DNA from: Undaria pinnatifida
Lineage: Eukaryota; Sar; Phaeophyceae; Laminariales; Alariaceae
Length of the DNA stretch: 64,000 bases
Reading direction: 5' to 3'
Assembly (NCBI GenBank): GCA_012845835.1
Contig: JABAKD010000016.1
Location: 16,397,625 to 16,461,624 of the forward strand
Below the pieces are notes generated by a model. That model was not told the origin of the DNA. It did no database searches and was given only the letters and a program-made list of their open reading frames with translations. A program made the position numbers and the translations under genes. Of the stretch, positions 37 through 63,300 are shown piece by piece (position 1 is the stretch's first letter; every line of letters starts with the position of its first letter).

Positions 37-3000
37 CGTCGCCGTGGGCGGACGAGCCGGGGTGGAGGCTCCTCCCAGTGATCGTCAAAAGCAACGATGA
101 CCTTAGGCAGGAGCAGCTCGCGTCGCAACTGCTGTTCGCGATGAAACGCATTCTTCGGGCCGAGGGAGTCAGGGCTTGGCTCCGGCCGTACGACATTGTT
201 GCCCTCTCATCGGACACGGGGATACTGGAAGCCGTCCCCGATACGATATCCCTCGACGCCCTGAGGAGGTATAGGGGAGGGAAGGGGGAGGATGGAGCGG
301 CTAGGGGAGGGGAAGGGGGAGGAGAAGGGGCAGGAGGAGGAGGAGGAGGAGCGGAGGGGGATATGTCGGCGTCGCGGTTCAGGTCGGTGGCGAGTTGTTT
401 GTGAGGTCGGTGGCGACATGGCCTGCCCTTGCCTTATTGCCTGATCAAAATCAAGATCGAAACGAAACTCGTTTTCGAAAACGAAAACGAACGCGAAATC
501 GAAATGGACATCGAAGCCAAATCGAAGCCAAAATCGAATTCAAAGTCGACATCGAAATCGAAATCAAGATCAAATGCAAGATGGATAATCCCAACCTCAT
601 TCAACTATCGCAATCGCGATCGCATCCAACGACGTATACGCCGTTCCCCTGCCCGTCGTATGTCAAGTAATTCGACGCTGCCGTCCACATGCAACAGAGA
701 ATATACCCACAAGGCGCCGATGTCCGCCTGACAAGCCGTTCTTGGTAGGATGCAAGTCACCCTTCGTGCGGCTCGCTCAACACCTTACGGTGCTTCGCGC
801 TTGGTGCAAGCTATGTCTGCCTGGTCAGTGAACACCCGGCATGCTCCGTCTCGGCATTGCAAGGAATTGAGAGTCTATTGTCTGCAGAGTGCCGCATTTT
901 TGTATGCGATTCGTGCGTTTGTGGCTCGCTATGTGTTATTAATAGTGATCGAGAAAGACAAGTTACTGTATTTGGCGTACATACCCCGCTCCAACCTGCC
1001 CACCCAACCCACCCACCCAACCACCCACCCCTCTCCGTCGTCTGGTGCTTTTGGCTCGTTCAGCTTGACGGGGTTCTTCGAGGCAAGATTCGGGGCGAAG
1101 GGCACGGAGGGTTTCCAAAAGGCACAGCGGCGTTTTATCGAGAGTCTGGCGGCCTATTCCATCGCGTGCTACCTACTCCAGATCAAAGACAGGTATGACA
1201 CGTACTCCGACACATTGTTCTACTATTTTGGTGGCGATCCTGGGTTCAACATATTTAGCTTCTTTGAGGCGTTGTTCGGGCGAAAAGAACGAAGGGTTTC
1301 CGAGAGGCGCAGAGGCGTTTTATGTAGAGCCTGGGGGCTTACCCCATCGCGTGCTCTCTCCCCCAGATCAAAGACGGATTGATGCTTGCACGCTCGCACG
1401 CTTGCTTGCTTGTATGTTTGCTCTTGCTTGCTCGCTTGCTTACTTGCACGCTCGCTCACTTGCTCTTCCTACTCTTTATACTCAATCACGCTTCCGATCA
1501 TGCCCCCCGCCCCACCACCAACGCCTCCTCCGATACTCCTTCCCCGTCGCCAAAACAGGCACAACGGGAACATCTTGCTGGATGCTCAGGGCCACGTTAT
1601 CCACGTAGATTTCGGCTTCATCCTTGCAAACAGTCCCGGTGGCAACTTCGGCTTTGAGTTGGCGCCGTTTAAGCTGACCCGCGGCTTTATTAAGTTGATG
1701 GGTGGGACGCGCTCGCGCTGCTTTAGGGAATTCCGAGGGCTTTGTGTCGATACGTTTTTGGCCCTCCGGCGCAACTCTCAGGTATGGTGTGGTGTTGGTA
1801 TTGTGTTGTGTGGTTTTGGTATGGCATGGCATGGGATAGTATGGTATGCTCGCCCATGGGCAAGAGAATGTGCTGTGCGGGACCGTATACTCGCCTTTAT
1901 AGCCCATCCCGATCCCAAACCCCACCCCAGGCTACTATTAGTAACGCCCGCCGCCTTCAGCACCATTGGAGACTGTCCTGTGGTCACGGACTAGATTATG
2001 ATGATGGGTTTATGTGAGAGCTGTAACAACGGACAAATGCAACGGTAGCGGTGGAATTATTTCACGGGTCATGACCCGGCCCGCGGGTCGAGGGAAGAGG
2101 TTTTTGAAAACTCACGGGTCGAATCGGGGCGGATCAGGAAGTGTTCGAAGTTTCACGGTGCAGGCCGGATGGGGTCAGGAGGCTTGCAATTGTCACGGGT
2201 CGTCGGGTTGTGTCACCATGACCAGACCTGACCCCCGCGAAAACCGTTCCGACCCGTGATAAAGAAAGCCCTGGAATTTTCGGCGGCTTCTCTGTTGCAA
2301 TGCTCTCTCTCTATATCACCCAACAACTGACTTTGATAAAAAACGAATGTGCAAAAAGATGAACAAGCCCGTGCAGGCCTAGGTATAAGACTGAACTCTA
2401 AAGTTGTTTGGGCTGCTGTAGTATTAATAGTAGGCATTACTTGCCCGGTTACTTGCGCGATGGCTAAGCGTTTTTTCTTGGGTCAAGTGTTTTGTCCCCC
2501 TTTTCAACTTGCGACATCTCCGGGATTTCAAGCCAACAACCACGTTCCGAAGGGAAACCTTGCACACCTCAGACAGATGACGATCGAGATCATCGAGATC
2601 ATCTAGATCATGTTGATTTATCTGCAGTAGATGAGTCACACCCCACGGTAAGGGTCGCATTTCTTGGGCCAAAATGTAAAGACCGGTTGAGCTTTCAGAG
2701 TGTGGCTCTTTCGGTTAGTGTGATGATTGTATGAGCACAATTAATCAGTTTTAGGACTAGCGCATAGAAATGTTGGCCGTGTTGAGTGAACGAACGCCTT
2801 CGAAGTCATGGTTTGGGTGAGATTTTGAGCTAGCTCCTCATGTTAGGAGCTCAGAAAATTCTTGGAATCTGCTACACCCCCAGCGTGGGATGATGACTCG
2901 GATCCTCTATTGATAGCTGCCTTTTACGATATGTTGTGCAGGATCTGTGCATATAGAGATACAGACCCAACCCAAGAAACGCGTGTTATATCGTGCAGAT

Positions 3001-6039: not shown

Positions 6040-6545
6040 GGTTTCCCACTGGAGGATCTTTACACCTTTCCCAAAAATTGATTTGAGTAAAGCAACAGGA
6101 CGCCTGCTACGTACGATGTAGAGGTAGCACGCACTTTTTTTTTTCTGGATTTCAAGACTGCTTTATAACCCAATGTAACCCAATATCGTTGGGCATGTGT
6201 TTTTTTTTTGGGGGGGGGGGCATATTTTTTTCCCCCGTTTTTTTCAACTATGTTCGCAGGTGGCGCTTTCATTTTTCTGAAAAAAAAAAACGTTTTTTTC
6301 TAGTGGTAGGGTATGGTTTTAGGGTGTTGAGCTCCGCAAGGGAGGGAACCTCAGAAAAAAAAATAGTGCGCACCTCTCCACGTGGTATGTGTCAAAGTTC
6401 CTGCCTGATGAACACTGCCATGGCCTAGGTATCTGACGAAAATCGTTCGGAAAAATGTCGAATTTCCGACGATTTCGGGTTAAGGAGTCCCGTTATTCAG
6501 AAACCGTTTTAGAGAAAGAGTGCTATACCTCTGTGTAGTAGGACG
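6040..6545. mobile_element. MITE family 1, rearranged/nested copy
   Basis: The right half, 6420-6545, has the family core CCTAGGTAT, CCGACGATTTCGGGTTAAGG and a degraded terminal end TATACCTCTGTGTAGTA. The left half holds inverted pieces (TGAGCTCC...GAACCTC, GTGCGCACCTCT) and TGTAGAGGTAGCACGCAC at 6117, so at least two copies are nested or inverted here. Confidence 0.55.
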
Positions 6546-9062: not shown

Positions 9063-9074
9063 GCCTTGGGGCCT

Positions 9075-9335: not shown

Positions 9336-9532
9336 TGTCGACCTCCCTGCCCCCGTTACCCTGGCCCCACGCCAAGCTTCGACCGCCTTGCTACCGTGCA
9401 TAAAACCCTAAACCCACGCCAAGGAAAAAACACCCCCGCAAGACAACCGTTTGGTCGTCATTACGATCCGATCCGTACAATCGGGACCAAAGCCCCGAGT
9501 TTACGATAATTCCCGAGTCATCCCACGACGTG

Positions 9533-10883: not shown

Positions 10884-11432
10884 CTGGTTTCAAAACCGGC
10901 GACATTCGTTAACCCCTTTGGAGCCCCCGAACCGCTCCCTATACTAAATCCAAGTAAATGTTGTCCCCACAACTGGTTTCAAAACCGGCGACATTCGTTA
11001 ACCCCTCTAGAGCCCCCGAACCCCTCCCTATACTAAATCCAAGTAATGTTGTCCCCAAAACTGGTTTCAAAACCGGCGACATTCGTTAACCCCTTTAGAG
11101 CCCCCGAACCCCTCCTTATACTAAATCCAAGTAATGTTGTCCCCAAAACTGGTTTCAAAACCGGCGACATTCGTCAACCCCTTTAGAGCCCCCGCACCCC
11201 TCCATATACTAAATCCAAGTAAGTTTGTCCCCAAAAACAGGTTTCCAGGTGTAAAGGGGTTAACCCCTTTAGAGCCCCCGCACCCCTCCCTATACTAAAT
11301 CCAAGTAATTTTGTCCCCAAAAACGGGTTTCCAGTTGTAAAGGGGTTAACCCCTTTAGAGCCCCCGAACCCCTCCCTATACTAAATCCAAGTAATGTTGT
11401 CCCCAAAACTGGTTTCAAAACCGGCGACTCTG
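10884..11432 (+). repeat. Tandem array, seven units of about 88 bp
   Basis: Units begin CTGGTTTCAAAACCGGCGAC and hold TTAACCCCTTTAGAGCCCCC and CTATACTAAATCCAAGTAA. Unit starts: 10884, 10973, 11061, 11149, about 11238, about 11323, 11409 (partial). Each start is itself a palindrome (GGTTTCAAAACC). A single diverged unit lies at 29030-29110. Units too long and too similar along their whole length to be a CRISPR array, and the host is eukaryotic. Confidence 0.85.
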
Positions 11433-15211: not shown

Positions 15212-15256
<45 letters not shown>

Positions 15257-25600: not shown

Positions 25601-27436
25601 ATAGCTCGTTTCATGCTTAACGTCCATCCAGTCGACATTGCTCATAACGCTCGGACTTTTTGTATCCCCTAACGCCCCCTCTCCCCCGCCCGTCTCGTAA
25701 GGGATGCGTGGTCAATATGGCTTAAGGCATGCCACAACTGAGTGCGTCCCCGCCCCCTGCCCCCGCCCCGCTGTTGCCTAAAACGGAAGGCTAATGACAT
25801 GACTAGAAAAACCACTCTAACGCTGGACCTTCCGCCGGCGCTCCTGAACAACGGATCAGCCTGGGCACACATTTTCCTAACGAAGAAAGGCTTTTCGCCG
25901 AATCCGAAGGTACGGAAGGGGGGGAGAAGGGGGGTTGACCTCGGCGCGAGTGGCGGGTATGGGGTGTGAGGGGGGCAGGGGGAGGTAGGCGTTGGGGTTT
26001 GGGGGGGGGGGGAGTTGTGCGAGTTTAATGTGTTTTTTTTGTTTCTTGTGTTGTGGTCGTTTTGTTGTTTTGCTTTGCTGCTCTATTTTTCTCTTGTTAT
26101 CTTGTCGTAATCGTGATTTTTTATTTGTGTTCTTATTGCTCCGTTATCTTTTTTTGTTGTGCTGTCACAGTCCATCAACTACAGCGACGGTGGGGTTTCC
26201 CACCAGAAGGCGCAGCTGAACAGGTACCTTCCGAAGCCGAAGAAGAGGGACGTTCACTACCTCGTGGACAAGAACAAGGAGGAAGCGGAGAAGGAGGAGG
26301 CGGAGAAGGAGGAGGGGGAGGAGGGAGAGGTAGGAACGCGCCGGGGGGGTCATACGGGTAGTTCTTGTGGATGGTGGTGGTAGTGGTGGTGGTGGTGCCG
26401 GTGTTCATGTGTTGGCTGATGTTGTTTGATGTATTTATCGACTTTCTGAGTGAATGGTCGATGTACTCGCTGATCCCGTGTTTTCGTATGTGATGATGTT
26501 TGTGATGGCGGGCTAATGTATCGCACATGCAATCCACGCCACTCTCCACCTCTCCTAAAGGACTACGGCCATGCAAGACATGGTTACCTCCCTCCTCCTC
26601 TCCAAACCTACCCCCCATCCACCCCCTCCCTCCTCTCCACCCCTTCCCTCCACCTGGCACATACTTCGTCTCCCCTTCCACATTCAACTGCTCCCCTCTA
26701 TGCAGATGGTCAACTTTTGGAAACCTACCGTGACCGTGGGACAGGTGGATTACACGGCCGTCTTTCAGCGCAACCACATCCCTGCTGTATTCGCGGGGCA
26801 TATCACATTCCAGCGGTAGGTGGAGCGTATTTTGGAATATTAATATTACACTACTTCTAAGTATATCTATAAACAGCACGGTATGATTTCACTCTGGGGT
26901 ACCCAACATTTCAAGGGCGTGTCAATTACCGTACTGCATATACTTTGGGGTAGCCGAGTACCAATTGTAGTTGCTTTGGTCATACTCGGGTAGTACCCGG
27001 GTATGTACGACTATACCTATCAACAGCACGGAATTGAATTCACTCTGGGGTACCCAACATTTCAACGGCGTGTTAATCACCGTATTGCATGTACTTTGGG
27101 GTAGCCGAGTACCAATTGTAGTTGTTTTGGTCATACTCGGGTAGTACCCGGGTATGTACTCTAGGGTGCCTGGATTCTATATCTGGTTGTTTTGGTCGTT
27201 TCGGCTATTTACCCAGGTAACCCCTGAGTAATACTCAACCAAAAGTGGCCTTGTATTATTGCAGCCTTTTTTTTTTGTTATTGCGTAGTGTAGCTCCGCG
27301 GTGGCTCCTCTTTTTCGTTGAGGCAAACCTCAAGTTGGGCGTAAGCCCAACGAACCATCGATTTTTTACAAGGTGTTGTTGTTGTTGCTGGTGGTGCTGA
27401 TGGTGCTGGTGCTGGTGCTATTGCTGTTGTTGCTGC

Positions 27437-27496
<60 letters not shown>

Positions 27497-30400
27497 CGTC
27501 GTTGTTGCTGTTGCTGTTGCTGTTGCTGTTGTTGTTGCTGTTGTTGTTGCTGTTGTCGTTAATGCTGTCTTGTTTGTCGTTGTCGGTGCTGCGGTTGTTT
27601 TTGCCGTCCAGCTCCACCGGCAACTACCACCCGATAATGTACGTGAACGAATTCTGGCTCCAGCAGAAGCACCTCGTCGCTCTCAACAGCACCGTCGAGA
27701 AGGTCGACCTCGAGCTCAGCATCTCCCCGATCAGCATCTGGAAATTCCAGGTGAGGTTTTGCATGCTGTGAGTTGGCTAGGCACAACTCTTGACGCTTCT
27801 TTTCATGAACACTCCTTGTTGGATTTGCGGTAGAACTGACGTTATGGCCGCCTTAATGTGGAAACCCGCCTTATTCAGTTCAGGTTTATGAGTACCATTC
27901 CCCATTGTGCCAAGCGATTTCGACCGCCTCATATCGGAATACCGCCTTATATAGGGATACCGCCTTATTGAGGGACCCCTGCTATATCAAGGGGATCATT
28001 GTCGCGCAAAAAATAGGGATACGGGTCGACTATGTATTACGGAGGACCATAATTAGGACCCACGACATGCATCAATATTCGCCTGTTTTCGCCTGTTTTT
28101 CGAAACCATATTTGGTCGTGAATTCTACTGTATTTTCCCCTGGATAGTTGGCTAGGTACTACAAACGGTTGCGTCCGGTAGTTCGTGGAGTTTTGACGCT
28201 TTTGGCTCGACGTGTGCTTTGTGTTGACAGAGGCTTACGTCATTTTCGTTGGCCTACGTTGGCACCCAACCATCGTATCTGCCGGGTAGCCGTCAATTGC
28301 AGCCCCCCACTCACAACCCTGCAGATCAGCATCCGGACGTTCCAGGTGAAAAATTGCATGTCGTCGATCAGCACCTGGAAGTTCTGGGTGAAAAATTGAA
28401 GCTATCGATCACCCTTGAAGCCCTGTCCGATTCTGATATATTTATTCGCTTCTCTCTCTGTCTCGCTCTCTGTCTCCCGCTCTCCCTGTCTCTCTCTGTC
28501 TCTGCCTTTCTCTCTTGTCTCTCGTTCTCTTTCTGTCTTATCTCTTTCTCTCCGTTTTCGTGTGGTCTCACTTTTTTTTTCCGCTGTTCACCCCTCTCCC
28601 CCGTCCACCTTCCCGTCCCCGCGATCCCCAACAAAAACCATCGAAATGGCTACCAAACTCGACGGAATGGTTATCGAAATTCGACGAATTGACTACCAAA
28701 ATCGACAAAATGACTACCAAAATCGACGAAATGGCTACCAAAATCGACGGCGCCCGGGGGGACGGACGATCGGGGTGGGGGAGAACAGACGATGACGCAG
28801 CTGGAGAATCAGTGGGAGGCTCAGTCTAAGCTGGGCATGGCGGGCGATGGAGAACAGGACACCTTCAGAGAGGTGCGCACAGCTTTCCGTCCCGTCCTCC
28901 GCCGCTTGCTTCGCTTTTCTAGTATCCGTCGTGTCCTTGTTTGTCCGCTGAGTGCGAGTGTAACATCGACCCTACTCGCTCCATCCAATAGAGGTAGCAC
29001 CTGTTGGCAAAATATTTTCTGAACGACGGGTCTTGAGAGCCCCCAAATCCCTTCGCTATACTAAATTCAAGTAAATACGTCCCCAAAAAAGGTTTCCAGT
29101 GGTAAAGGCGTTAACCGAAAATCGTCGGAAATTTATATATATATATTTTTTGCAATCTGAGCATTTTGTATACCTAGGCCGTGCGATTTGGAGATCGGAT
29201 TTCACTTTCATTTTCGTCAAAATCAGTTTTTTGTATGAGGCACAGTATAGAGCCCCTCAATAGGTTAGGAGCCTCAGAACACACACATGGTGCACCTCTA
29301 TCATGCCGTAGCATAGGTCACCTGGTATGTATGTATGTATGCTTGCCGTAATAAAAAACGCCTCCTATTGATGTTTTTAATACTGTGAAGAGGTATAACA
29401 GAAGCCAGCCGTCGACGCAGAGTCAACCACTAATAAGTGAGCGTTTCTTTTAATATATTTTTCGGATCGCCCGCAACAAAATATACAATTAAGATTCAAT
29501 GCCGCTCCACAAAACAGCATATTTCCTGCGTGTAGTCATCCACATCTGGGGTAGAGTGGGGCAATCGATGCTTGATAGGCCCAGTAGGTGTTGAGTGGGG
29601 CAATCGATGCTTGATAGGCCCAGTAGGTGTTGATGGCGTAGGGTAGGGTAGGGTTGGGTGGGTAGGGTAGGGTAGGGTAGGGTAGGGTAGGGTAGGGTAG
29701 GGTAGGATAGGGTAGGGTAGGGCAGGGCAGGGCAGGGTAGGGCGGGGCACGGTAGGGTAGGGTAGGGTAGGGTAGGGTAGGGTAGGGTAGGGTAGGTCTC
29801 TGTAGCTAGTAACTTTCGGCCCCCGTTAGAACCGCAACCGCGTTTTTGGGGAGGACTTGACTTAACACTATTGTGTGATCATTTAACAGTGCTAGGAGAC
29901 ATTAACGCACACCCCTGCCACGTGAATTATCCAATCCCTACACCGCACGCAACGGGAAAACGGAAGGTGAGCCCTACACGGAAGGTGAACCTGCACGCGC
30001 AGCCATACACGGCCGGGTGTGTAGACGCGCGCGCTGTGAGATATATGGGATCGGCATTGTGGAATTATATCTCCTGCGCATTCGGCGTACTACCTGAAAA
30101 ATCAAGTTCGTAAGCTTACATACCCCACTCAGCATCAAACATGCCAGGAGACCGTCAGTCAAGGGAAAACGTCCAGCGGCCAAGGGCGTCAAACCGATCG
30201 TTTCACACTAAAACTTAGTAGTTTGCCGTCAGCCAAGATACATTTTCGGAAAATTGCCGTCTGCCAAGGGGTGGAAATGCTGTCTCCTGCTATCTTTGCT
30301 CAGCATACACGTACTCCCTCAGCCCATCCCGGCGACGAGGTCAGACAAAAGCCCGCCGTTGACCTCTGGCTGATGCGACCATGGACTTGATTGCCGCTTG

Positions 30401-33400
30401 CGCCAGGAGGGGGGAGAGGGTATCAAACGAAAATACGTCGTTCTCCTTTTTCATATGCTTTCCTCCCATGTCTCGTTTTTTTTTTTCAGATGCTAGCGGA
30501 AACGAATCCGATCGTGCTGGCGATCACGATGGTCGTGACCCTGCTGCACTCGGTTTTCAACTTCCTCGCCTTCAAGAACGACATTTCTTTCTGGAAGGAT
30601 AAGAAACGGTCAGTCAGTCAAAATCAGTTTCTCGACGGAATTGTATTTTGCGTGGTTTCGCGTGTTTTTTCATGTTTTTTTCGTGTTTTTTTTTTCGTGA
30701 TCGTGTGTTTTTTTCATATTTTCGTGTTTTTTGTTTGTTTGCGTATCTATGTTTTCGTGGTTAGGGGGATGGGTTTACGTATCACTGTGATATCCCAAAC
30801 TATCGTTTATACCAGGCAGCTTTTTTCTAACACAATGCGTCCTCCCTTCTTTCGCCCTGTTCTTGTCCTGTTGCGTTATGTCTGGGGGGTTGTGCAGGTC
30901 GTTGGAAGGCATTTCTGTCCTGTCGATGCTTGTGAATTTGTTCTTCCAGGGGGTGATTTTCCTGTACCTCGCGGATAACAACACCACCTACATGGTCCTG
31001 GTCACCAACGCCATCGGGTTGGCCATCGAGGCAAGAAAGCGTCGTTGTTGCTGTTGTGCTTGTGCTTGTTCTTGTGCTTATGCTGCTTCTTGTTGCTTTT
31101 TGTTTTGGCTGCCAGCTAGGTTGGCGTGCTAGGTTGCTACTGTTGCTGCTTTTGTCACTAAAAAACACAAGTTAATGCAGTTTTTGTAGAACCGCCCATG
31201 TTCTCAGGACACAGCATGTGCTCAAAATAGTTCCCCCTCCGTCCGTCCCTCTCCTCTCTTATTCTTTCCCTGCTCTCTCCTTTTCAACATTTCAATCGTG
31301 TGGGTTCCATTCCGCCGCCCAGGTGTGGAAAGTGGGCAGATTCATGGTGGGTCAATTGGATTGGGGCGGGGTCGACGGACAGCCTCGCCGCACACTCCCC
31401 AGAATAACTCTGCGCGCGAAGGAAACCTATCGCAAGGTGCGGAATATCTTGCGCCGTTTCGCATTTGTTTTTCGGAGTTAGCTTGTGCCGTTTCGCGTCG
31501 CTTCGTCGGAGGCTTGTGCCGCTTCGTCTCTTCTTCGAGGACGAACTCGTGCCGTTCCACCTCTCCTTGTCAGGGGCGGACGGTGTTGGGAAGTTATCCT
31601 GATATTTCACCCAGTTTGCGTCCGGAGCAGGCGGCGCAGCAATGTTGTGTTTGTGAGGTAGTGCCTCGTTGTCGCCTCTGGAGTAAGGCAAAGGAGTTCG
31701 ACGTTATGCCCTTGTTTCTTGGAACCGGGAGCACCCCCCTCCCCCAGCCCCCGCATCCCTAATGCCCCCAGAGTAACACGAAGGGTTTCGACTACACAAC
31801 AACGATGCCTTCTATTGTGCCACGTAGATGTTGTGCGGACTCTGTTTCCTTCGATTCGGGACTTATTGCGACTTCCCCCCGCCCTCCCCCATATGCATTC
31901 CAAATAATGCCTCTAGAGTAAGACGAAGGAGTTCGACGATACCGCGACGGCGCACCTGCTGTACCTCGTGGCACCCCTCATGGTGGGGTATGCGGCCTAC
32001 TCCCTGCTGAACCAGCAGCACCGGGGGTGGTACAGCTGGGTGCTGAACTCGCTCGTGGGGTTCGTGTACATGTTCGGGTTCGTGATGATGACGCCGCAGC
32101 TCTTCATCAACTACAAGGTAAATGCTGGTGAAGGATGTTGTACCGAAGGTCGTGCTGCTGGACATAGGTATTGATACGTAGTAGGTAAGTAAGTAGGTAG
32201 GTAGGTAGGTAGGTAGGTAGGTACATGTATTGTATATGCATGTACCCATGCACTGGACCGGTGGAGTTTGCTAGACTTTGCGCGTTGCATGCCGCAGCAA
32301 TTTGACGTTTTCTAGCAATTTAATGGTACGACATACGAGTTTTTGGTTCGCTCCTCGTCTACCCTCCCCCGTCCCCCCATCGAGAGCCTGCTTTGAGTGT
32401 CCACAGTGCTAGATAAGGATTGATATCGGGCGATGCGTATAATGCGGCGTATCCAGTAGTTTCGTCGAGCGAGGGTTCCATGTATGTGAGCTGTGTGCGC
32501 CGTTCTATGTTGCTACGCGTCCCTCCCACTCCGCCCGCTCTTTTTCGCCCCCTGATTGTCGCTGCTGTTTGTTTCTCAATTACTTTTATCTCTTGTATTC
32601 CGCGCTACCTGGACAACAACAACGTCAACGCCAACACCACCAACATCAACACCTATCAACATCACCAACGCCAACGCCAACACTACAAACACCAACACTT
32701 GCAACACCAACGCCGACGAAACCAACTCCAACACCACCACCAACACCAACACTACCAACACCACCACCACCACCACCACCCCGGACACCACCGCCACCAT
32801 CACCATCACCACCACTGTCGCCGCAGCTGCAAAGCGTAGCGCACATGCCTTGGCGGGTGATGTCGTACAAGTTTATCAACACCTTCATCGATGATCTTTT
32901 CGCCTTTGTAGTGCCCATGCCGACCATGCATCGCCTGGCATGCTTCCGGGACGACATAATCTTTTTCGTGTTCCTCTACCAGCGCTACCTGTACCCCGTC
33001 GACAAGACCAGGCGCAACGAGTTTGGCCAATCAGCGAAGAGCACAGAAGACGCGGAAAAGGTACGTAATATGAAACGGCCACGGAAAAAACAAATTGATA
33101 GAAAATACGTATCTGATGCTCGTACACCAGGGTACCTGGTACTTATTTTATGAATACCGGGTATCTCATACTCGTAAGAGCTGTGTATTGGCAACCAACA
33201 TATGGGAAGAGCTGCGGCCAGCCTGCAGCAGTACACGTATCATCGTGCTGCGTGCGTGTCGTACACACCCCTCCATTGCGCTTCGGGTACATGTCCTACT
33301 TCATCAACCATAGCCGCTTCGTGTGGTTCGATGCTGTGATTTCATTTTCCCCTACCTTCGTGCCTCCACGCCTGATCTCTTATCTGTGTAGCTGCGTTTC

Positions 33401-37145: not shown

Positions 37146-38794
37146 TCATGGTGGGACCCTGACTTTTCGTCGCAGAAACTGCACGAACGAATCGACGTCT
37201 TCGTCTACCGCGGCTAGGTTATCAACCACTGGTTCTCCTCCTCCTCTTCCTCCTCCTGCCTCTCCTCGTCCTCCTCCTTCTCCTCCTCCCGCCTCAGGTC
37301 CGGCACCCCCCGCCCCCACCCTCATTCCCACCACTCCTCCATTTTCACTTCCTATTCGGCTTTCGTCCTTCCCGCTCGAGGGCATTGTTTCATCAAGGGT
37401 CTCTGAAGTAGTACCGTTATCAGGAGGAGCAGAAGGTGGAGGCGGTGTCGGTGCGGGGGTAGGAGCCGCGCAGATAGCAAATGCCGCCATCGTCTTGCAC
37501 CCGAGCATTCGCCCGAGAGTGCTGCTGCTGCTCGTCCCCCCCGGCAGGACCAGGCAAGGCGTTCCTGTGAATATTGCGCGAAGCGACGGCGGTATGATGA
37601 ACGGCTGTGGTGCAAGTGGGGGGATAGGGGAAATCGGGGGCTATGTTTGAACCGGTGAAACCATACCCTTGCTCTGCTCCCTCCCCTCACTTCTCCCTAT
37701 CTCCCGTTCATCTGTACGACGCGAAAAAAACAAGAAATCAGTGGCTTCAATCGATCGACCGAAGCGCGCGATAATTTGTACCAGTTATTGCGTTCATACT
37801 GTACCAGGTGCAAACAAACGTATGTTGTTCTTAACCTCACCCGTGAGAGCAACTAGAGCGTGGAGGTGCTCCACCAGCCGGGTAGGCCGTACATCTCCGG
37901 AGATGATGACGATGGCCTCACCCCCACCGCTGCCACCGCTACCACCACTACCACCACCACCACCATCGTTTCTGCTGCTGGTGTTGCTGCAGTCGTTCGA
38001 ACCCGAGGAAGCCGCGGTGGTCTCGAGGAACTTGGTGACTTCGTTGATCCCCATGCGAAGCCGTCGCCTGACACGGTCTCTCGTGCGGCCTCCTGTGCGC
38101 GCGTATAGAGAAGTGGAAGGCATAGGCGATGGGGGTGGGAAGGGGGATTACGCAAGCAGAGGACTACGTAGGGAATTTTTCCTGCGTTTATTTTTTACTG
38201 GCCGAGTGTCGAGACGGGGGTGGTTTCGGAGGTGCGGGTGGGGGCGTACGGGCGTACTTCTTCTCTCCCATTAGTATTTCCTAGTTGAGTTTGCGTTTAT
38301 TTTTTACTGGCCGAGTGTCGGGACGGGCGTGGTTTCGGAGGTGCGGGTGGGGGCGTACGGGCGTACTTCTTCTCTCCCACTAGTATTTCCTAGTTGAGAA
38401 TAAAGAAACACGACACCCAGATTGCATGCTAGCGTGCCTTGTGCGTGGGCGCAGAAGGGGGGAGAATCAACTGTAAGAAGACAGGGACGATAGCTGCTGC
38501 TACTGCTGCTGCTGGTGCCGACTTACCAAATCCGATCCAACCCAACCCAACCCAACCCAACCGAACCAAGCCCATCCCATCCCACCCGACCCCAACCCAA
38601 CCTAGTCCAGCCCAACCTAGCCCAGCCCAACCCAACCTAACCCAACTCAACCCAACTCCACTATTCACTGCTTACTCGTATGACACGTACCCGCTTCGAG
38701 CAAGCTGACGACCTCCTTTCTCAGTCTGTCCAGAACGATGCCGGCCTCGGTGGGGTCAATGGAGAGGGCGGCCGTCCGTTGCCCCGCCGAAAGT
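37146..38794 (-). CDS. RPP38-like (L7Ae-fold) RNase P/MRP protein, 5' end unresolved
   Basis: Exons (minus strand): 38794-38691, 38092-37841, 37564-37146 (stop TAG-side at 37146). Junction phases agree (phase 1 at both). Seen in order: DPTEAGIVLDRLRKEVVSLL, then RMGINEVTKFLE, then EAIVIISGDVRPTRLVEHLH, then PCLVLPGG...STLGRMLGCKTMAAFAIC, and finally DSFVQFLRRKVRVPP. GxNEVT...LE followed by a hydrophobic strand and LGR..GCK is the L7Ae RNA-binding fold as in human RPP38, a protein subunit of RNase P, which trims tRNA 5' ends. Two low-complexity inserts stand out: a Ser/Asn/Gly insert in the first loop and a ~85-residue Pro/Gly/Ala insert before the last helix. The start codon and any exon above 38794 were not found. 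NHP2-like identity is less likely because of the NEVT motif. Confidence 0.8.
38184..38400. repeat. Two tandem 109-bp units in RPP38-like intron
   Basis: GCGTTTATTTTTTACTGGCC to TTTCCTAGTTGA is repeated with a 109-bp period and only three or four differences, so the duplication is recent. Confidence 0.88.
38525..38660. repeat. (CCAAC)n-type array in RPP38-like intron
   Basis: Degenerate pentanucleotide CCAAC/CCCAACC array. It generates a Gly/Trp/Leu frame on the minus strand that is not a gene. Confidence 0.8.
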
Positions 38795-51333: not shown

Positions 51334-54300
51334 CTACAGACGGACCTGCGAAGCGCTGGTGAGGACTCTCGCGCGCTGTCTGGCTTCCGCTTCGGCCTTC
51401 CTTGTGGCCGCCGCGCGCTCCCTCTCCGCGTCATCCAACGCCCTCTTCCTCGCGCTCTCTTCCGCCTGTGACCAATTACCAAGAATTGTAGCGTTAGAAA
51501 AATTTCGACGTACGTCCGTGATGGAGTCACGGTGTGGAAAAATAAAAACCGGTGGAATGACCGGTTGTTAGAGATATCCGAATGTCACCAATAGTACCGT
51601 TGGAGAACATTCCACGGGCATCCCGTTTCCGGCACGTGTGCAAACGTAAATATCGGTGAAAAAAATAGGAGCATTAGGCCAACGAACTCGTGTAAGAAAC
51701 TGATAATGAACTCCAAACATGGAGGTTTCAGCACCTTCGCAGGCGTGTTCGACCCGGGGTACGGGGAAATCGGGTCCGCGTTTCTCAAATTCCGACTAGC
51801 CGTTTTGCGAGAAGCATCCAACGATGATTGCCGTTCTTCAGAACAGGGGTTTCGAGTTTTATACCAATAATCGGAAGACGAGCTTCCGATACATATCGCC
51901 GTTTCATCCGATGAAACGCCTATTTGTTGCATAAAATAGTTGTTGCATAAAATAGCGCCCGAAACTGAGTTTGAGGAAACTGCGGAATATCGAAAAAAAA
52001 GCCGTTTTGCGAGAAGCATCCAACGATGATTGCCATTCTTCAGAACAGAAGTTTCGAGTTTTATACCAATAATCGGAAAACGAGCTTCCGATACATATCG
52101 CCGTTTCATCCGATAAAAACGCCTATTTGTTGCATAAAATAGTTGTTGCATAAAATAGCGCCCGAAACTGAGTTTGAGGATCTCGCGAAAAGGCTGGTCG
52201 GAATTTGATCAAAGCGGGCCCGATTCTCCCTGGGCCACACACGCCCTCGAGGGTGCCGAAACCTCCATTGTCAGAGTCCAACATCAGCTCCTTGTAAGAG
52301 TTGGGCCTAGGGGGTGTTCAACGTCCAATTGTTTCCTGCAGGATGGTGCGGGAACAAAAGTACCGTTTGATAGATAGACCACCTCTTGTTTCTCAACATT
52401 AGTATCAGCATCCGTGGCCATGTTTTTAAAGACACACAGAATACCCAGCGTTCGGCTGACACACCGACCACCTTCACGGGTTCATACATCACCACATCCC
52501 GCACATACATCCTCGCGAGTTCATACACACGTCATCACCCCCTGCGCAGCACGCGCAATCGAAATACCACGCGCAGCTTGCCAAGACGAGTATCGACAAA
52601 TCTCTCGGTCTGGACAGCTGAGGGATCTTTGCAATTCTCATGATCGATAGCATCGCTCTGGGTAAAATTGTCCTGTTGACCCCTTGCAGCATCCAGGGGG
52701 GTCACTGGCCTCCATATCTTCAAATAGTATTACATATCTTACTAAAAAATTGAAAAACGTTAGCTGTGAGTACGACCGATAGAACGATTGAAACCCAACT
52801 TTGCAAGCTGCGTGGTACATGTATCTTTCATTTAGGATATATGGTGTTTGTGAATTGAACCTACGATATGGTTGTTAAATACACAGCAGTCGCACAAGTT
52901 TTTACGGAAGGTCGTTCGCGCGAGTTCTATATTTTATCCTCGTGAAAGTCTGTAAAAACGGGTAGCCGGAGTTACCACGCAGGTTGCAAACATGAGCATG
53001 GACCATTAAATAGACCGACTCACAGCTGACCTAGGCGAAAAAAAATCACAAAACGCCGTTCTTTTCGTGGCCGCGCTTATTCAGCTGTGTCTTTATAACA
53101 ATAAAAAAAAACGGGAGTGATGATGTTTGGTGTACCGACCGCATTGCTTCGTCAGCGTTCGCGTTGGGTACCACCGCAAAGCAACCCGAGGATTCTTCTA
53201 TTTTGGAGTACCCCAGATTACTGGGATACTCGGTGAGCTAAACCTCCAACACGTCTTGACTGTCCGTCTGTCTGTCTGTCTGATCCTATTCACTGGAGTC
53301 AAGGCCGTGAACGCTTTTTGCAACGCAACCAAATAACGAATGAAGGCAAATTCTAGGTAATTTCGTTGCAGCAGTCAATCATATCATGCACATTGTCGAA
53401 AGGAAAAAAAAAAAAAACTATGCTTGCCTCTGCCTTTCTCTTGGCGGCCGCGCGCTCCTTCCGGGCATCCTCCAGCGCCCGCTTCTTGGCCTGCTCCTGC
53501 TGCTTCACCTCCTGCTCCGCCCGCTTCGCCGCCGCAGCACGCTCCTTTCGAGCATTCTCTAAATTCTTCATCTTAGTGTTCCGGGCCTGCACCAACTGTT
53601 TCGCGGTTTCATTCGTCAACCGGGAAGCGTCAAGCGTCAGAGATCACACCGCGTTTAGAGTGAGATATCAATAAAATAAAATCGGCATCTGCCAAACGTC
53701 AGAGATCACACCGCGTCACGAGCGACGTAAAAGTCAGCATCCGTCACGCGTCATGACCGCGCCACGTTTCCAGTGAGAGTCATCAGAGGCCGTCAAGCGT
53801 CAGAGACCACGCCATGGAGATAATCATCAGCATCCGTCAAGCGCCAAGCGTCAGAGATCACGTCGTGGGGGGGGAGGGCTTGGGGACAGGAGTAGAGTGA
53901 GCGGTCGGATGAAGAAAGCTGCGTGTGTGCAAGTGTCCAGTGATGTAATCATCGGGATCCGTCTAGCGTCAGATATCACCCCGCCTCTCCGGCGAGATAA
54001 TTACCGGTCATCGACATCCGTGAAGCGTCAGAGATCACGCCGCGTATCCAGTAAGACAATCACGCATCACGCTGATTACGACCAAAACAATAAATATACG
54101 AGCACCATTAAAAATTCGACAGCCCAAGCGTAACTAGAGCTTGTCATTAGTAGCTCTAAGCACGCAAATAATCGTACGACCAAAACAGAAAACATTAAAA
54201 AAGCTTACTGAAGCACAAAACGTACTGAATCATACCTCTTGCTTGGCCTTTTTTTCCGCAACGATCCTGTCCTTGGCATCCTGAGCCAGCTTCTTCTTTT

Positions 54301-57300
54301 TCGCATCGGCACTCTGCCTCAACTGGAAATCCCACCCCCACCCCGCGCCCCCGCACACAAAATAGAACAGAAAAGACAAACACACAAGTTGTAAACATGG
54401 GAAGTATGTCGCACGGGTATATATACCGGAACTGCTGGTATGATGCCATATCACTGATACTGAAGTAGGTAACATGCAGCCACAATTGTATATATGATAC
54501 GATATGAGTAGGAAAACCGAGTGCCTGTAACAGGGGAGGAACAAGGCAAGGACAGACCTTGTACAACGATGGAGCTCACAGATGATACCAACCTATAACA
54601 TAAACGAGGACACACCCAGAAATACGCGTGGTCGGAGTAACACACACAGCTTGCAAAGATGAGTTTCGACGAAATCTTCGATCTCACAGCTGGCGTGTAT
54701 TTCTATTTTTTTATTGAATAGCAGATATACTGGTACCAGGTATTAATTTGTTTAGGCTATGTTTTGCAGTTAGGCCATTTCTTATACAGTCGGATTCCGC
54801 CAGTCGAAAACAGCACTTTTCGACTGGACTTTTTTCAACTGGATTCTTCCGGTCCTTCTTCTTATCGTCAGTCGAGTCGATTTTTTAGTTTTTGTGCTCT
54901 TCCTAGAGGCGGTAGGTGTGAGGGAGTAGACTACTGCTGTATGGCACTCGAAAATCGGTTGGCAGCTCTGTGCTTCGCGCGTTCTTCGCGAGCAACGCGT
55001 GCTTCACGCGCGACGAACCTTCGTCCAAGCGGGTTGGTGGCGTTGGGCTTAGCCGAAAGCCGCCAAAGCTACGTTCGCGGCGTTGCACTCAGCCGAGAGC
55101 CGCCGAAGCCACAGCAGGCGTAGCCGTTGTTGGCAAAATGGCATCGATAACGCGCGCTACTGCTGTCGTGTGATACACGCTGCTGGCGAGCGGAGGAGCT
55201 AGGAGTGCGCCACGCTGACTTGCGGCGAGAAAGCAACGGCAGTGATAGCCAAGGCAGCGTCGGCGCTGTTGTATGATACTGCTGTGTGGTACCTGGTATG
55301 GGTGTGTGGGCGTGTGGGTGTGTGTTTTGTGGTGGGATGAGCGATGCGATGGATTCAAAAAATATATGTAAATTTTTTTCGACCGAGTTTTTCGACTGAC
55401 AGATCCAGTCGAAAAAGTCAAGTTTTTCGACTGGACCCCCAGTCGGAAAACTCGGTCGAAAAAAGTTGAGTCGAAAAAGCCCTTTTTCGACTGTGTAAAA
55501 AAGCCCGATTTGGGCTTCAGCCGAAAACGGCCGTTTTCGACTGACCAATCCGACTGTATGAGAAATGGCCTTAGTAGACGGTTGATGCAAAATTCCCGTT
55601 TTGTGGGTCGCTTTCTCTGGGCACTGAAGCGGTAAACATATGTGTACCACTTCGGGATAATGAGTGATCGACTTTTAAATAACGAAATCACGCTGCACAA
55701 GTCTGCTTCTTTGCCACTACCCGTGCTATAGTACAGCGGTGTTGATTCCCCGCGAAACAACCACTAATAATTGCTGGCTGACGCGCCACCTCTTTTAAAC
55801 CGGTATCTCTCAAATCGGGCTCCTTAAATCGTGGCACCACCTTTCTTGTACAGTTATAACTCTTGCAATGCGTAAAAACAAGTCGGGCCTACGAACGTCG
55901 GGCCTGGAGACAAACAACGTGAATCATCCTCCTTTACATGCGTTACTAACCCAATGAGTGATCGACTTTTAGAATCACAAAATTAGGCTGTGCTTCATTG
56001 CTGGTTGAGCGAACACCATGATAACCAGTGCCAGGTAAATGCTGAAGCCATGCTTCTAGGACAATCAACTCGGAAAAACAGTGAGTTTTTTAGTTGGTAA
56101 AATATCTGGTACCAGGTATTAATTAGTGTAAACATTTTTGGCACGAAGAAAAAGCTGAAGCCATAAAAACAGCTCAGGTTTTCGGGACAATTGGCTTTGG
56201 AAGTAGAGACTATTATATTTTCTGTAAAATAGCAGGTACCAGGTATTTCATAAGTACCGTAGACTATTATTTGCTCGTATATGGACAGCAAAAGCTAAAC
56301 CCATTTTTTCGGGACAACCAACTTGGAAACGGTGAGTGGTTTTCTTTGGGCAGTGATAAGAGCCGGTCCCTCGGTGGCCTATCAACAGTGGTTAATCTCC
56401 AACACCACTAAGGTTGGAGTCAGGCGTTCAACTCTCGATATGCAGATTTTTATTTCTAGGGACACCAACTGCCGAGACGCTTCATGTAGCGTCGATAAGC
56501 ACAACTCGACGCGAGTCGATGAGGGAAGAAGAGCCTTCTTAGTCACCCCGTATCTGAGGTACAACTAGGGAGGGAAAAGGAGAAAGAAAAAGTGTGAAGA
56601 AAATAGAAGGGACTAGCAAAAAAACAAAAAAAGTCATGAAAGGAAAGGGCTTCGTAGGCTTGATGCATGCAAAACAAAAATGGGGCAAAGAAAATAGAAG
56701 GGACTAGCAAAAAAACAAAAAAAGTCATGAAAGGAAAGGGTTTCGTAGGCTTGATGCATGCAGAACAAAAATGGGGCAAAAAACGCGGTGAAAGGAAAGG
56801 GTTTCATGGGCTTGGTGCACGCAGAAAAAAAAGGGCAAATAAACAAGTGAAAAAAAAAAACGTTTTGTGCACCTTGAGCTGCTTCTCCTTGAAGGCATTC
56901 TCTTTGGCCTTGGCCGCGTCCGCCCTCGCTTTCGCCGCGTTCTTCTTCTTCTGCTCTGCCCGCTGCTGCACTTCCTTCACCGACTTCTCCTTAGCCTTCT
57001 TGTTCTCTGTCGATCAAATGGAATAAGACAGGGTCTTGAAGGTAAGCTACAGGACACATACGATACTAGAAATACTAGTGAGAAACATGAACATAGTCGC
57101 CCAGGCTCGATTGGTCTCGGCCGCCAAAACCAGCCCCATCACAATCGCCAACAAGACAAGAAAAAAAAAAACGAGAACGAGAACAAAGCATGGCACAGTT
57201 ACGAGCACAAGCACAAGAACAGGAACCCCTCTCGCTTGCCTTCAACTTAACCTTAGCGGCGCCGTCCTGCTTGGTTTCCTTCTCCTTCGACGCCCTCAAT

Positions 57301-60300
57301 GCCACCAGCAGCAACACCAACATCAACACCAAGGACAACAACACCAACACCAAGAACAAGAACCAGAGAAGAAGGCCATGAACTCGAGAAGAACGACATG
57401 AAAACAACATAAACAAGAACAGGAATCCCTAGCTTACCCGCTGCGGCCTTAGCCTTAGCGTCTGCCCTCTGCTTGGCCTCCTTCTCCTTCGTCGTCCTTA
57501 ACAGCGCCTCCTCCTTCACCTGCTGCTTCGACAGCACCTTAGCCTCCTTGCTCGCCGCCTTCAGCTCTTTCTGCAAAAAATATGTAAGAAAAGACGAAAA
57601 AAAAAAAAAAAACGCAGCAAGCAGGGATGGTTTACGATTAACACCTTAACGCGTACTTTTATGAAGCGACCTTCCCAGGCGCATCTCCCGGATGCGCTTG
57701 GGCGTCTCCTTCCTCCTACTTTCTCCCCCCCCCCCCCCCCCCGCCCCTCTGACAGCAGCAAAAAAGATACTAGGATGTTCAAGTACGACGAGTAATACAA
57801 TACTAAGAGCGCAACTAGGAATGCACCCACTTAAACGTGAGGAAATTGAAACGGCAATATAAAGTAAATAATATGCCATAAAAGAGGTTGCAGCCATAGT
57901 TGATAATGCTGTATGGGAGAAAATAACAAAAGGGCGAGCTGGAACAAGATGGGATAACGTAGTCGAGAAAATATGGAAGGATATAGGGGGAGACCAAGAA
58001 GAGGTGCTGTCTACAGATAAGTTTGGCGGGTACAAGACATAAATAAAAGGAAGTTCAGAAGAAAGGGAAAGGCTAGCGCTAATAAATAAGGTGAAAGAGG
58101 GGAAGCACTTAAGAGATATACGGGGAGTTGAGGGAGGATACTGGAATGAAAACATGTCTGCACGGCCCAATGGACTACGCAAAAAAAAGAAACTGCGATT
58201 TCGTGTGAGGGACCTGGACCTACCAGAAAGAAAGAGATATATCAGTAGTCGGGAGGAGAAGGACGTGGCTACAAATATGTGCCCGTGTGGCACAACAATA
58301 GAGGGTAGGACTCACATAGTAGGAGCATGTGAAACATACAAGGGGGAACAGGACGCGTTAGGGGAGGACATGAGGAAATCAGACGTATGTGATATGAAAG
58401 AGTTTGGTAGACTAGAAAGTAGCGAGAAAACGATTGCTATCCTAGGAGATAGACGGTGGCCGCAGACGGCGAAACAGGACGCGATAGGATAAGCAAACAG
58501 TTTCTATGTAGTATATGGAAGAAGCGTAACGAGCGCCCAAATGTTGGAGGTGTCAATTAAGAGTAGGAACGGTGCTCCATCTCGAAAGGGATGCGTGATC
58601 AATTATCAAATGACTACGGCAAGCAGCAAATGAGTACGCCCCCCCGCCCCCTCCCCCCTCTCTCCCTCCCTCCCCCCCTCCTTCCCTCTGCAACTCGTTG
58701 TGCCTACTTACCCGGTGCTCCTGATAATGTTTTCGGCGTTCTTATTCCCTCCCTAACCCCCCCCCTTCCCTCCCTCTACAACTCCTTGCGTAGACTTACC
58801 TCGGCGTTCTTGATGTTTTTGGCGTTCTTAATCTCCCCTCTCTCTCCCTGCTCCCTTCCTTCCCTCCCTGCCCCCCCCCCCGCCTCTCCCCGGTGCTCCT
58901 GGCCATTTTTTGGCGTCATAATTGTCTATCCCCCGTCCCTCCTTGCCTCTACAACTCCTCGCGCTTACTTGTCCCGGTGCTCCTGATGATTTTTTCGACG
59001 TTCCTAACCCCTCCACCCGCCCCTACGCCCCTCTACCACCCCCCCCGCTTACTTACCCCTGTGCTTCTCGTGACATTTTCGACGTTTTTAATCCCTCCTC
59101 CCTTCTACAACTCCTCGCGTTTACTTACCCCGGTGCTCTTGATGGCGTTTTCGGCCGCCTTAATTTCTTTCCTCGCCGCCGCTGCTATCGTCTGCTCAGA
59201 CGCGATCTCCTGCTGCAGTCGGGCTCGCACCTTCTCGGTCCTGTTTAATCATATCATATCAATATCATATCAATATCATATCAATCAATGTCATATCAAT
59301 CAACATCAAATCATATTGACATATCAGCATCAACATTAGGGTATCAGCATCGGATGGAGTCGTCATTGGACGGTATTAGTAGGATGCTATCAGTATTGCC
59401 TCAACATCGAATTGTCAGCAGCGCAAGAATATCGCATGGTGTCAGTATCATATCAACATAATGGTGTCAGTATCGGATGGAGTCGTCATCGGATGGTATC
59501 AGTATCGGATGCTGTCAGTGCCGCATGCTATCAGTATGGGATGGTACTCGCATTGAATGGTATCAGTATCACATCTACATCGAATTGTGTCAGTACCACA
59601 AGAACATCGCATGGTATCAATGTCGTACGAACATAATGGTATCAGTATCGGATGGAGACATCATCGAATGCTATCAGTGCCAGATGTTATCAGTATCGCA
59701 TTAACGTCGAATTGTGTCAGTATCGCAAAAACATCGCATGATATCAGTATTGTATCCACAAAATAGTATCAGTATCGGATGGAGTCATCATTGGACGGTA
59801 CCAGTATTGGATGCTGTCATTGCCAGATGGCATCAGCATGGGATGGTATCAGCATTGGATGGTATCAGTATCGCATCAACATCGAAATGTGTCATTATCG
59901 CAAGAACATCGCATGGCATCAGTATCGTATCAACACAATGGTATTGGTATCGCATAGTATCAGCAGCGTGTCAACCACGGAAGACGTCAGCATCGTATCA
60001 CCATCGTGGTACAGCAGTAGCATCACATAGACAACGACAACATCAACAGCAACAGCACCACCACCAATTAACACCAAGCCCAAGACAAAAAAAGACCAAA
60101 AACAAGAATTGCATATCTCACTTGGTGGTCTTGATCTTCAAGGTATCGTCTGCAACAAGAACAAGAACGTCAACAAGAGCGCGATCAAGAACAGCAACTG
60201 CAACAAGTACAGCATAAAAAACAAGGAAAATATCAAGAACCACATGTTTCACTTGGTGGTCTAATAATCAAGATACCGTCCGCTATCCTCAAGGACTCCA

Positions 60301-63300
60301 ACAATAACAATAACAAGAACAAGAAATTAATCTCACTTGGTTGTCTTTATCTTGAAAGTGTCGTCCGCTATTTTCTTCTCCGCGGTGACAAGCTTGTTAC
60401 TGTTCTCGGTCAGCGTACTCTGCGCCGCCGTAGCCAACTCCGATTGCTTACGGATCGTCGCCGTTAGCTGTATTCATACATTAGCCCACCCCGCCCCCCC
60501 GTGCCACCAATCGCCCGTCCACATAGCCCGTCGAATTTGTGGCATCCACACCCGGTCAGCGAAAAAGATGCAAACAAGTATCACGATATATAATTGGGGA
60601 GGGGGGAGCGGGAAGGGGGGGGGGTGGAGAGGGGGGAGGGGGAGGGGTGGAGGGAGGAGGGGAAGTGGAGGGAGGGAGAGGCGGTTGCGAAAGGAAAAAA
60701 TAAACAAGAGGGAGGAAAATGATATTCGGTAGAACAAGCAAAAACAAACACATACACCCGCATTTCCATACCTTACCAATACCAGTAACCTTCCAAAACA
60801 TCCTGTAATAAACGAAGCGCTAAAACCCCGCCGCCATCCTCCCCCTACCGTTATAAAAAACCTACCTCGGCCTTCTTTGAGCGGATGTTGTCTACAGCCA
60901 CCTCCTGCGGGTTCTTGGTTACCACGGGGGCCTTCGTAGCAGATCCAGCAACAGCCTCTGGTTAGGGTTCGAATAATAAAGCGGCGGCGTATCCGAGGGT
61001 GTTAGGGGTTTGGTACCTGGTAACCCTTTTTACTACCGCACTGTTTTCCCTACACTAGTTGCAAGCAGTCTGTCTCCAAAAAACGAGGGCGGAGCTCCAA
61101 GAGATTAGCTGCCACAGGGGCCTTCGTAGTTCGTAGCAGGGCTGTCGAGAGCCCCTGGTTGGGTTGGGCTTTGCGTGATAAAAAGGCCGTGTATCGGAGG
61201 GTGTGGGGGGGTCACGGGTTTTGGTTACACCGGGGGGCTTCGTAGCATGTCCGGTGAGAGCTTCGAATAAAGGCGGCGCTCGAGGGTGCGGGGGAGATAA
61301 ACATTTTACAATCGCGGTTGTAGCCAAATAAAACATCCCAAAACATCAGTATTTTGGTACTTGACCAATGAACGGGTATTTCCGAACAAGTGACGATGTA
61401 CTACTATTTTTTTAAATAGTTCTAACCACTCTTGTCAGCGCCCATTTTTACCATGGCGAACATATGCATAGTTGGGTAATGGATTAATTATATACCTGAT
61501 AGCAGGTAACTGGGTTTTATTGGGAGACATCAGTCAGAGCGGTCTAGATCAAGTCTGGATGCGGTCCAACAAGCAGTAAGCTCTACGACACTCGTGCTGA
61601 CTTTCTACGTTTTCCTCGCTCTTGTTGGGGCCCATCCTGATCGTGGCGAAGTCGGAGCGAGCGATCCGGATGCCGTCAAGCAAAGCCTCCCTCTCGGCCA
61701 TTCCTAGCCCTATACTTTTACCCTACTCTTCGTACTGACTTACACTTCTCACCTACTCTTACCACTTTTACTCGCTGTTATCAAAGCCCATATTGACCGT
61801 GAACAAGCCAAACCGAGTCACGCAACCACCGCGACTAAGCTCTAACCAACCCACGATCCCTGAACGCTGCTTCTCGACAAAACAAGCCACCACATCACCG
61901 CGATTTCACCCAGATCACTTCGCTCTTCTCGGTGTACCGGAATGCTATTCACTCACTCTTGTCAGGGCCCATCTTGACCGTGGAGAAGTCGGAGCGGGCG
62001 GTCTGGATGCTGTCCATCAACGCCTTCTTTTCCGCCAGAATCGCCTTCTCCTTCGCCTCGGCTGCGGCCTGCTCCGCCTTCTCCTTTGCCGCCTTCTCGG
62101 CCTTAGCCTTCGCCGCTGCCGCCTTCGCCTATAGTAACGGCAGCGCAAGAAAATGCAACACAAATCACAAAAAAAGCGGTAAGAGGGTAGATTAGTCGTA
62201 CAATTCCGTAGATTATGTCCATCACAATTTAGAGTTGAAATAAAACAACCCTACAACCTTACGATTAGCGGTCTCAGTTTTCGTCGCTGCCGCCTTAGCC
62301 TACGGCATCATACCATACAGGAAACGCAAAAAAGAGGACCAAAATCAGATTAGAATAGTGGCCTACAGCCAATCAAAAGAACTGAAGCCAAGCAACCAAG
62401 CAGTCGAAGCCTGGGCGGAGGTCTTGACCTGTGATATGATATAGTACAGGCAGTGCAAGAAAGCGGTAATCAGATTAGTCATAGTCGTATCTATTGTAGT
62501 TTTATAAACACATAACACTGTAATCAAGCAAACGAGCAGCCTTGGCGGTCTTGGATCTCGCCGCTGCCCCATTCGTCTACAACGTCACTCGGGCAGTCCA
62601 AGAAGCCGAAAAAATAATATCGCAGTCGTATGTCGGCGATAAAATTTTAGACCTGACGATAAAAACTTAGAACTGAAATCAAACAACCAAGCAGCCTGGG
62701 AGGCCTTAGCCTTCACTTATGGCAAAGGCAATGCAAGAAAGCAAAACGCATTAAAGGACAAGAACCACTGTGAGAAGAAGAAAAACATACAAACACACTT
62801 CAACATCCGCCACCACCACTACCGCCACAACCCCCCCAACCACTCCCACCATCCCTACCACCCCCAACTCTCCCCCCATCACCTCCCCCACAACCGCCAC
62901 TTCCATCCATCTCCATTACCCCCCCCACACACACACTTCCCTTGCCCAAAACCTCACGACGGTTCGCGCTTGGTGCAAGCAATGTCTGCCTGGTTGGTGA
63001 AACCCGACGTGCTCCGTCCCGGCCTAGTAGGGATGCGAGGGTCTATGGCCATACGACTACGGCCATGCACAAACTGAGTACACCCCCCCCCCTACTTGTC
63101 CCCCCTCCCACCCCCACCCCCTCCACTTCCAACACCCTCCCCCCCTTCCCTCACATCCATCCCCCACCCCCACCAACCCCTTTCCGCCACCACCTCCATC
63201 ACCACCTACCGCAGCCGAAGGACCACTCGGAGCAGAAGCCTTCTTCTTCGCTGCCGCCGGAGCTGCCTTGGGCGCCGGTGCGGGGGCGGGCTTTTGGACC

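Follow-up and report, generated by a model that had tools for sequence, protein, structure and literature searches.

Genes in the window

We analyzed a window of 64 kb from the kelp Undaria pinnatifida (contig JABAKD010000016.1, positions 16,397,625 to 16,461,624 of the forward strand), in which some introns carry decayed copies of the edges of adjoining exons. Judged from its sequence, the window is nuclear DNA. All results refer to this single window, with 44 splice edges in four genes. Gene models were derived from spliced protein-to-DNA alignment, inspection by eye, and phase-consistent joining of the exons of one of the four, the coiled-coil gene.

A PI4K gene, with a match to PI4K-beta in the PDB, is located at the left end of the window. 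CLPTM1, on the + strand, has ten exons (25790 to 33039) along with an upstream piece that has a donor at 23701, as modeled by spliced alignment to Ectocarpus protein P0001; a five-base 'exon' in this alignment was discarded as spurious. CLPTM1 has 92% identity to a Laminaria digitata protein across 69% of the query, and 73% identity to an Ectocarpus protein across the entire query. The coiled-coil gene, on the - strand, has nine exons (62128 to ~51361) that form a single open frame with phases agreeing across eight introns; continuity of the frame required that one exon end be shifted by one base, as judged from the donor sequence. The remaining gene (19614–21413) owes its PHO88-like label to an earlier note on this DNA. 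Its two joined exons, possibly an incomplete model, gave no Pfam match at E ≤ 0.01, and a rough piece of the region gave one chance-level match in the PDB.

The 44 edges result from revision of an earlier list of 46, from which the start codon at 19614, the CLPTM1 end at 33039, and an uncertain exon end at 51361 were removed, and to which the donor at 23701 was added. Eleven edges of the coiled-coil gene were re-placed by 1–14 bases. The uncertain edges 1064, 26357, and 31030 were kept.

Copies of exon edges in introns

Each edge was represented by a 60-base probe (40 exon and 20 intron bases), and the neighboring 1.5 kb toward the intron was searched for matches by alignment, with the same DNA reversed as the control. 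Nine of the 44 edges scored at least 29, the cut adopted here, versus none of 44 for reversed DNA; nine likewise reached the cut in the list of 46. These are one edge in PI4K (donor 1192), two in CLPTM1 (donor 27750 and acceptor 31917), and six in the coiled-coil gene (acceptors 62128 and 60957, and donors 61957, 60337, 59129, and 57438). None of the nine was matched as well by random distant stretches of the window (up to 200 per edge), in a test that used the old coordinates for some of the nine. Comparison of matched with mismatched exon-intron pairs thus shows the signal to be real. Judged against the distant stretches, 12 of the 46 edges of the earlier list reached p<0.02, among them 1781, 21413, and 57006, which were weak, scoring 24–25, and being under the cut were not counted. 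At 21413, the edge of the PHO88-like gene, the probe scored 24 against a distant maximum of 23, and further matches of a longer probe lay entirely within TG-rich intron. The earlier note had reported copies at nine edges in four genes, an observation that is largely real, but PHO88 was not confirmed.

The copies, which lengthen the introns, number from one per edge (PI4K, offset 186) to five (coiled-coil e5), the range given in the earlier note. In the 16 copies examined in detail, which are in direct orientation, the matched exon stretch is 19 to 117 bases long and the intron stretch 3 to 93. Each of the 16 includes one edge only, and never a whole exon with both splice sites. The variable reach on both sides of the junction indicates that the source is DNA and not spliced RNA; RNA-mediated copying was ruled out, as the copies carry intron bases beside exon bases. 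Copies of 3' edges lie downstream and those of 5' edges upstream, as had been noted, and no match was found on the other side of any of the 44 edges. This rule carries no extra information, however, because the geometry of a junction-spanning tandem duplication forces the direction. The five copies at e5 are near-contiguous with a period of ~87 bp, and near-contiguous units also occur at 38183–38398 and 56597–56783. The CLPTM1 donor copies are ~595 bp from their source edge.

A family of interspersed repeats, transposable elements, or introners could seed the same sequence in many introns, and interspersed repeats do exist in the window (e.g., 723–895, 46042–46366, and 62941–63093). The copied sequences, however, are gene-specific coding edges, each of the nine matches its own intron, and the random distant stretches hold no equal match. 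The same sequence in unrelated introns, by which an introner or transposable element would be known, was not found in those stretches of the window. We consider such a family extremely improbable. The earlier note's view that unrelated genes share the pattern without sharing sequence, which speaks for a process rather than a repeat family, is upheld, none of the nine edges being matched as well in the distant stretches of the window.

Table 1. Copied exon edges, their copies, and duplications used for comparison. Positions are those of the window.
Feature	Positions	Strand	Basis and details
PI4K exon, 3' edge copied (..YLLQIKDR, donor GTATGA)	1064..1192	+	PDB PI4K-beta match; edge score 44 vs distant maximum 26; 5' end 1064 a guess from acceptor
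Decayed copy of PI4K bases 1074-1198	1260..1382	+	Offset 186; alignment covers 117 exon and 6 intron bases, with one stop and two exon indels; donor lacks GT
CLPTM1 exon ending ..SIWKFQ, donor GTGAGG	27612..27750	+	Spliced alignment to Ectocarpus P0001
Two copies of 27750 exon end and donor	28324..28391	+	Starts 41 bp apart; 595 and 637 bp downstream; GT kept in both
CLPTM1 exon, acceptor edge copied (SKTKEFDD..)	31917..32117	+	Spliced alignment
Two upstream copies of 31917 acceptor edge	31674..31804	+	Offsets -235, -145; AG kept in one
Coiled-coil exon e2, both edges copied	61957..62128	-	Spliced alignment, phase joining, edge probes
Copies at e2 3' edge	61427..61807	-	Three reach edge (offsets 181, 337, 527); one partial exon copy (448)
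Copies at e2 5' edge, upstream in transcript	62269..62764	-	Three reach edge (-171, -453, -591); one intron-only match (-310); both copies examined in detail retain AG
Coiled-coil exon e3, acceptor edge copied	60866..60957	-	Spliced alignment, phase joining, edge probes
Two copies of e3 5' edge	61105..61288	-	AG kept in one, unaligned in other
Coiled-coil exon e4, donor edge copied	60337..60467	-	By eye, phase joining, edge probes
Two copies of e4 3' edge	60085..60286	-	Offsets 85, 215; copy examined in detail retains GT
Coiled-coil exon e5, donor GTAAGT, edge copied five times	59129..59240	-	By eye, phase joining
Five near-contiguous copies of e5 3' edge and intron	58676..59081	-	Period ~87 bp
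Coiled-coil exon e6, donor edge copied; resembles e7 as well	57438..57570	-	Phase joining
Copy of e6 3' edge and ~91 intron bases	57137..57299	-	Offset 202; GC at donor; four exon indels
Comparison: non-edge tandem duplication, CLPTM1 intron	26862..27159	+	Offset 150, 92.6% identity
Comparison: non-edge duplication, coiled-coil intron	51798..52180	-	Offset 202, 96.7%
Comparison: non-edge tandem duplication, coiled-coil intron	56597..56843	-	91 bp unit, 96.9%
Comparison: tandem duplication outside annotated genes	38183..38398	.	109 bp unit, 97.2%
Comparison: tandem array outside annotated genes	10884..11428	.	88 bp unit, ~six copies

Exon edges compared with other points

Exon edges were compared with ordinary points by a pseudo-edge test, in which a point was counted if it scored at least 29 and above every distant stretch tried. 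The edges (9 of 46, 19.6%) resembled intron points (22.4% of 602), and other points were at 10.0% of 1706, a set that may include unannotated genes. With low-complexity probes left out, the rates were 20.0% of 45 edges, 19.8% of 495 intron points, and 8.0% of 1430 other points. Against a stricter intron background, from which points inside an edge copy or matching an exon had been removed, the rate at edges was 20.5% (9.8–35.3%) versus 15.9% of 1700 intron points (8.3–26.1%, bootstrap over 20 introns; points within an array are correlated). Sliding the 44 edges within their genes gave a mean of 8.57 (standard deviation 2.33) versus the 9 observed (p=0.51), and sliding them across the window gave 6.65 (standard deviation 2.67; p=0.25). 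In this small sample, exon edges as duplication sites are not special relative to other points of the same introns, and the tie to exon edges asserted in the earlier note was not sustained.

Duplications unrelated to any edge are found in 12 of the 20 introns. A BLAST search for local duplications (offset up to 1.5 kb, E ≤ 1e-4) yielded 18 loci after merging, 13 of which do not contact an annotated exon, including all five with a best match of 92–97% identity.

A process targeted to edges, such as splicing-coupled repair or R-loop-related copying, would preferentially duplicate splice junctions. It is favored by the occurrence of copies at 9 of 44 edges and by a slight lean of the edges at stricter score thresholds (7 versus 5.7 for edges slid within genes and 4.3 for edges slid across the window; at the strictest, 5 versus 3.4 and 2.6, respectively; p 0.11–0.32 over both thresholds). 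It is opposed by the like rate at intron points and slid edges, by the absence of a common boundary relative to the splice site among the 16 copies, and by the 13 BLAST loci away from annotated exons. We therefore regard edge targeting as improbable.

Local direct repeats are a general property of the window. A direct match within 1.5 kb was found for 18.3% of 2661 probes, as compared with 1.2% when the DNA was reversed and 4.9% when inverted matches were sought, and 430 of 601 offsets were below 400 bp. The spread is uneven, with repeats in 44 of 64 one-kilobase bins and none in 20. With 50-base probes, used in an earlier scan, the rates were 23.4% of 1767 for introns, 16.8% for edges, 12.5% of 240 for exon interiors, and 12.7% elsewhere. 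As a check of the method, the 60-base scan of 49 kb of Escherichia coli gave 0.6% of 2444 probes, a bacterial figure that is an unfair yardstick for a eukaryote. The identities of 38 nearby high-scoring segment pairs from BLAST range from 68% to 97%, which points to duplication events of differing ages.

Decay of the copies

Identity to the source over the 16 copies is 78.8% for exon parts and 80.7% for intron parts. The exon parts contain 13 indels and one in-frame stop, and the mismatch rates at codon positions 1, 2, and 3 are 0.196, 0.176, and 0.265, respectively (p=0.09). The earlier note had described the copies as including the splice site; of 15 copies in which the dinucleotide is readable, 9 still have it (GT at 5 of 10 donors, AG at 4 of 5 acceptors) and the rest do not. 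Because retention at this level is about what a per-base identity of 80% predicts, there is no clear departure from neutral decay, and the decay of the copies looks about neutral. An apparent excess loss of GT from donor copies, which might have indicated inactivation of decoys, vanished once the edges of e3, e4, and e5, which had been off by 2–8 bases, were corrected.

The copies might instead be retained for function, as decoy splice sites, poison exons, or alternative exon ends, and the surviving AG and GT dinucleotides are in keeping with this. Their retention is nevertheless close to chance, the exon parts have acquired indels and a stop, and each copy has a single edge rather than a whole exon, making a function very unlikely. 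The pattern of decay thus lends no support to the decoy or regulatory use proposed in the earlier note; its suggestion that copies seed new exons describes a possible outcome.

Mis-joined or unresolved repeats in the assembly could also generate apparent copies, and a few of the non-edge tandems are ~97% identical and could vary between haplotypes. The edge copies, however, are ~20% diverged from the exon and have indels. Divergence of ~20% with indels far exceeds usual read error or allelic difference, and an assembly artefact is scarcely credible as their source.

Origin of the copies

The copies are very probably the neutral remains of frequent short, local, head-to-tail duplications with endpoints anywhere in this DNA. 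The duplicated units would be mostly tens to a few hundred bases in length. Where a duplication runs from inside an exon into the next intron, the first donor would still join to an intact exon, leaving the protein unchanged. The acceptor is the mirror case, in which the last unit would be the working one and the copies would lie upstream. The extra piece would be spliced out with the intron and then decay. Duplications that break an exon should be purged by selection, and those wholly within introns or intergenic DNA would survive as well, though lacking coding letters they would be overlooked in a search for protein similarity. Junction-spanning duplications are thus conspicuous for their coding letters, and intron-only duplications, though about as frequent, escape notice. 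A general mutational process can in this way mimic an exon-specific one. The molecular cause is presumably replication slippage, template switching, or end joining, and we infer that selection on exons acts as the filter.

Several observations weigh against this explanation. The rate outside the four genes is below that at edges, and the edges lean high at the stricter thresholds. The intervals are wide and the sample small, so that, although the edge rate is not above the intron background as expected for breakpoints independent of gene structure, about a two-fold excess at edges (35.3/15.9) is still compatible with the data. Four of the nine edges (27750, 31917, 60957, and 62128) are absent from the BLAST loci and were detectable only by the more sensitive probe. 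Six of the nine edges belong to the coiled-coil gene, which is itself made of similar exons. In PI4K, the intron half of the unit is too decayed to prove head-to-tail contact. Exon parts are not better matched than intron parts, although a better match would be expected if exons are constrained and copies neutral; trimming by local alignment could mask the difference. Lastly, exon interiors also have local matches, about half as often as introns in the 50-base scan, and removal of exon duplications by selection is accordingly a supposition.

A bolder and rather doubtful extension is that this brown alga has unusually high local duplication, such that about one-fifth of splice junctions drag decaying copies into the intron, forming a lasting reserve of surplus splice sites and partial exons from which new exons would come, with coiled-coil e4–e7 as a potential end product. 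These four exons (60467–56873, - strand; 510 nt) are in frame and frame-preserving. An Ectocarpus fasciculatus protein, P0121, joins e3 straight to e8 without e4–e7, though it is a partial automatic model and the sole Ectocarpus model found. Exons e6 and e7 are alike at 75 of 100 bases. Lineage-specific gain of e4–e7 by duplication is possible. No protein relative of the e4–e7 cassette was found at E ≤ 0.01 among 6695 candidates.

Other features of the window

The interspersed repeat at 723–895, 46042–46366, and 62941–63093 matches over 60–173 bases, with 77–85% identity between places, and is present as two tandem copies (75%) at 46132–46366. A second interspersed family is present at 6418–12332 and 44726–44976, with several copies from 8.8 to 12.3 kb and one near 44.7 kb, mostly at 68–81% identity. 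A 39-bp unit in a CLPTM1 intron (29554–29796) is repeated exactly twofold next to a long GTAGG array. In a coiled-coil intron, a palindrome-like stretch (55371–55467) aligns with its reverse complement over 98 bases at 84% identity. An open frame at 13798–14175 (- strand) has an ankyrin repeat match (Pfam Ank_4, E 7e-7) and is possibly part of another gene. Rfam gave no match in the window at gathering thresholds, and the CLPTM1 protein of Laminaria (P0002), searched against viral_contigs and genome_contigs, had no relative there.

Comparison with known systems

Achaz, Thomas, and Messer and Arndt have reportedly dealt with short local duplications and closely spaced direct repeats of eukaryotic genomes. 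As in those genomes, nearby direct repeats in the window exceed inverted ones and decay over time. The density of local duplications in the window seems high.

Mean intron length is 1,057 bp in Saccharina japonica versus 703 bp in Ectocarpus (PMC4421812). Should the whole genome be as dense in such duplications as the window, local tandem duplication could be among the causes of the long introns of kelp, and brown algae would suit the measurement of how often duplicated splice junctions become new exons.

The model of Rogers (1989; described in PMC4974935) has introns gained by duplication of an exon segment containing AGGT, duplication-based intron gain has been discussed for Drosophila (PMC2891723), and internal gene duplication was treated by Gao and Lynch 2009 (as cited in PMC4974935). 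The Rogers model resembles the kelp copies in invoking a short tandem duplication at or near splice signals. Its unit, however, is purely exonic and makes an intron, whereas the kelp units take in intron sequence and make an intron longer. A tandem duplication across an intron-exon boundary made a new spliced intron in the potato RdRp gene PGSC0003DMG402000361 (PMC4974935). Like the kelp copies, it crosses the junction and carries the splice site; another duplication in the potato gene, of 83 bp, lies within an intron. The potato event created a new intron, while the kelp copies are decayed sequence inside existing introns.

Tandem exon duplication or mutually exclusive exons, with whole exons in an open frame, do not describe the kelp copies, all 16 of which are one-edged and which have indels and a stop among their exon parts. 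Among the titles and abstract openings listed by searches of an open-access library, we found no description of exon-edge copies in brown-algal introns. Brown-algal ROCO genes, including those of a kelp, undergo duplication and shuffling of LRR exons (PMC11378527), and so share with the window intragenic exon duplication in brown algae. In ROCO genes the units are entire exons of 72 bp, which remain coding and undergo alternative splicing, whereas in the window partial edges decay. The type of event is already known; a dense set of such events within one algal window is new to us.

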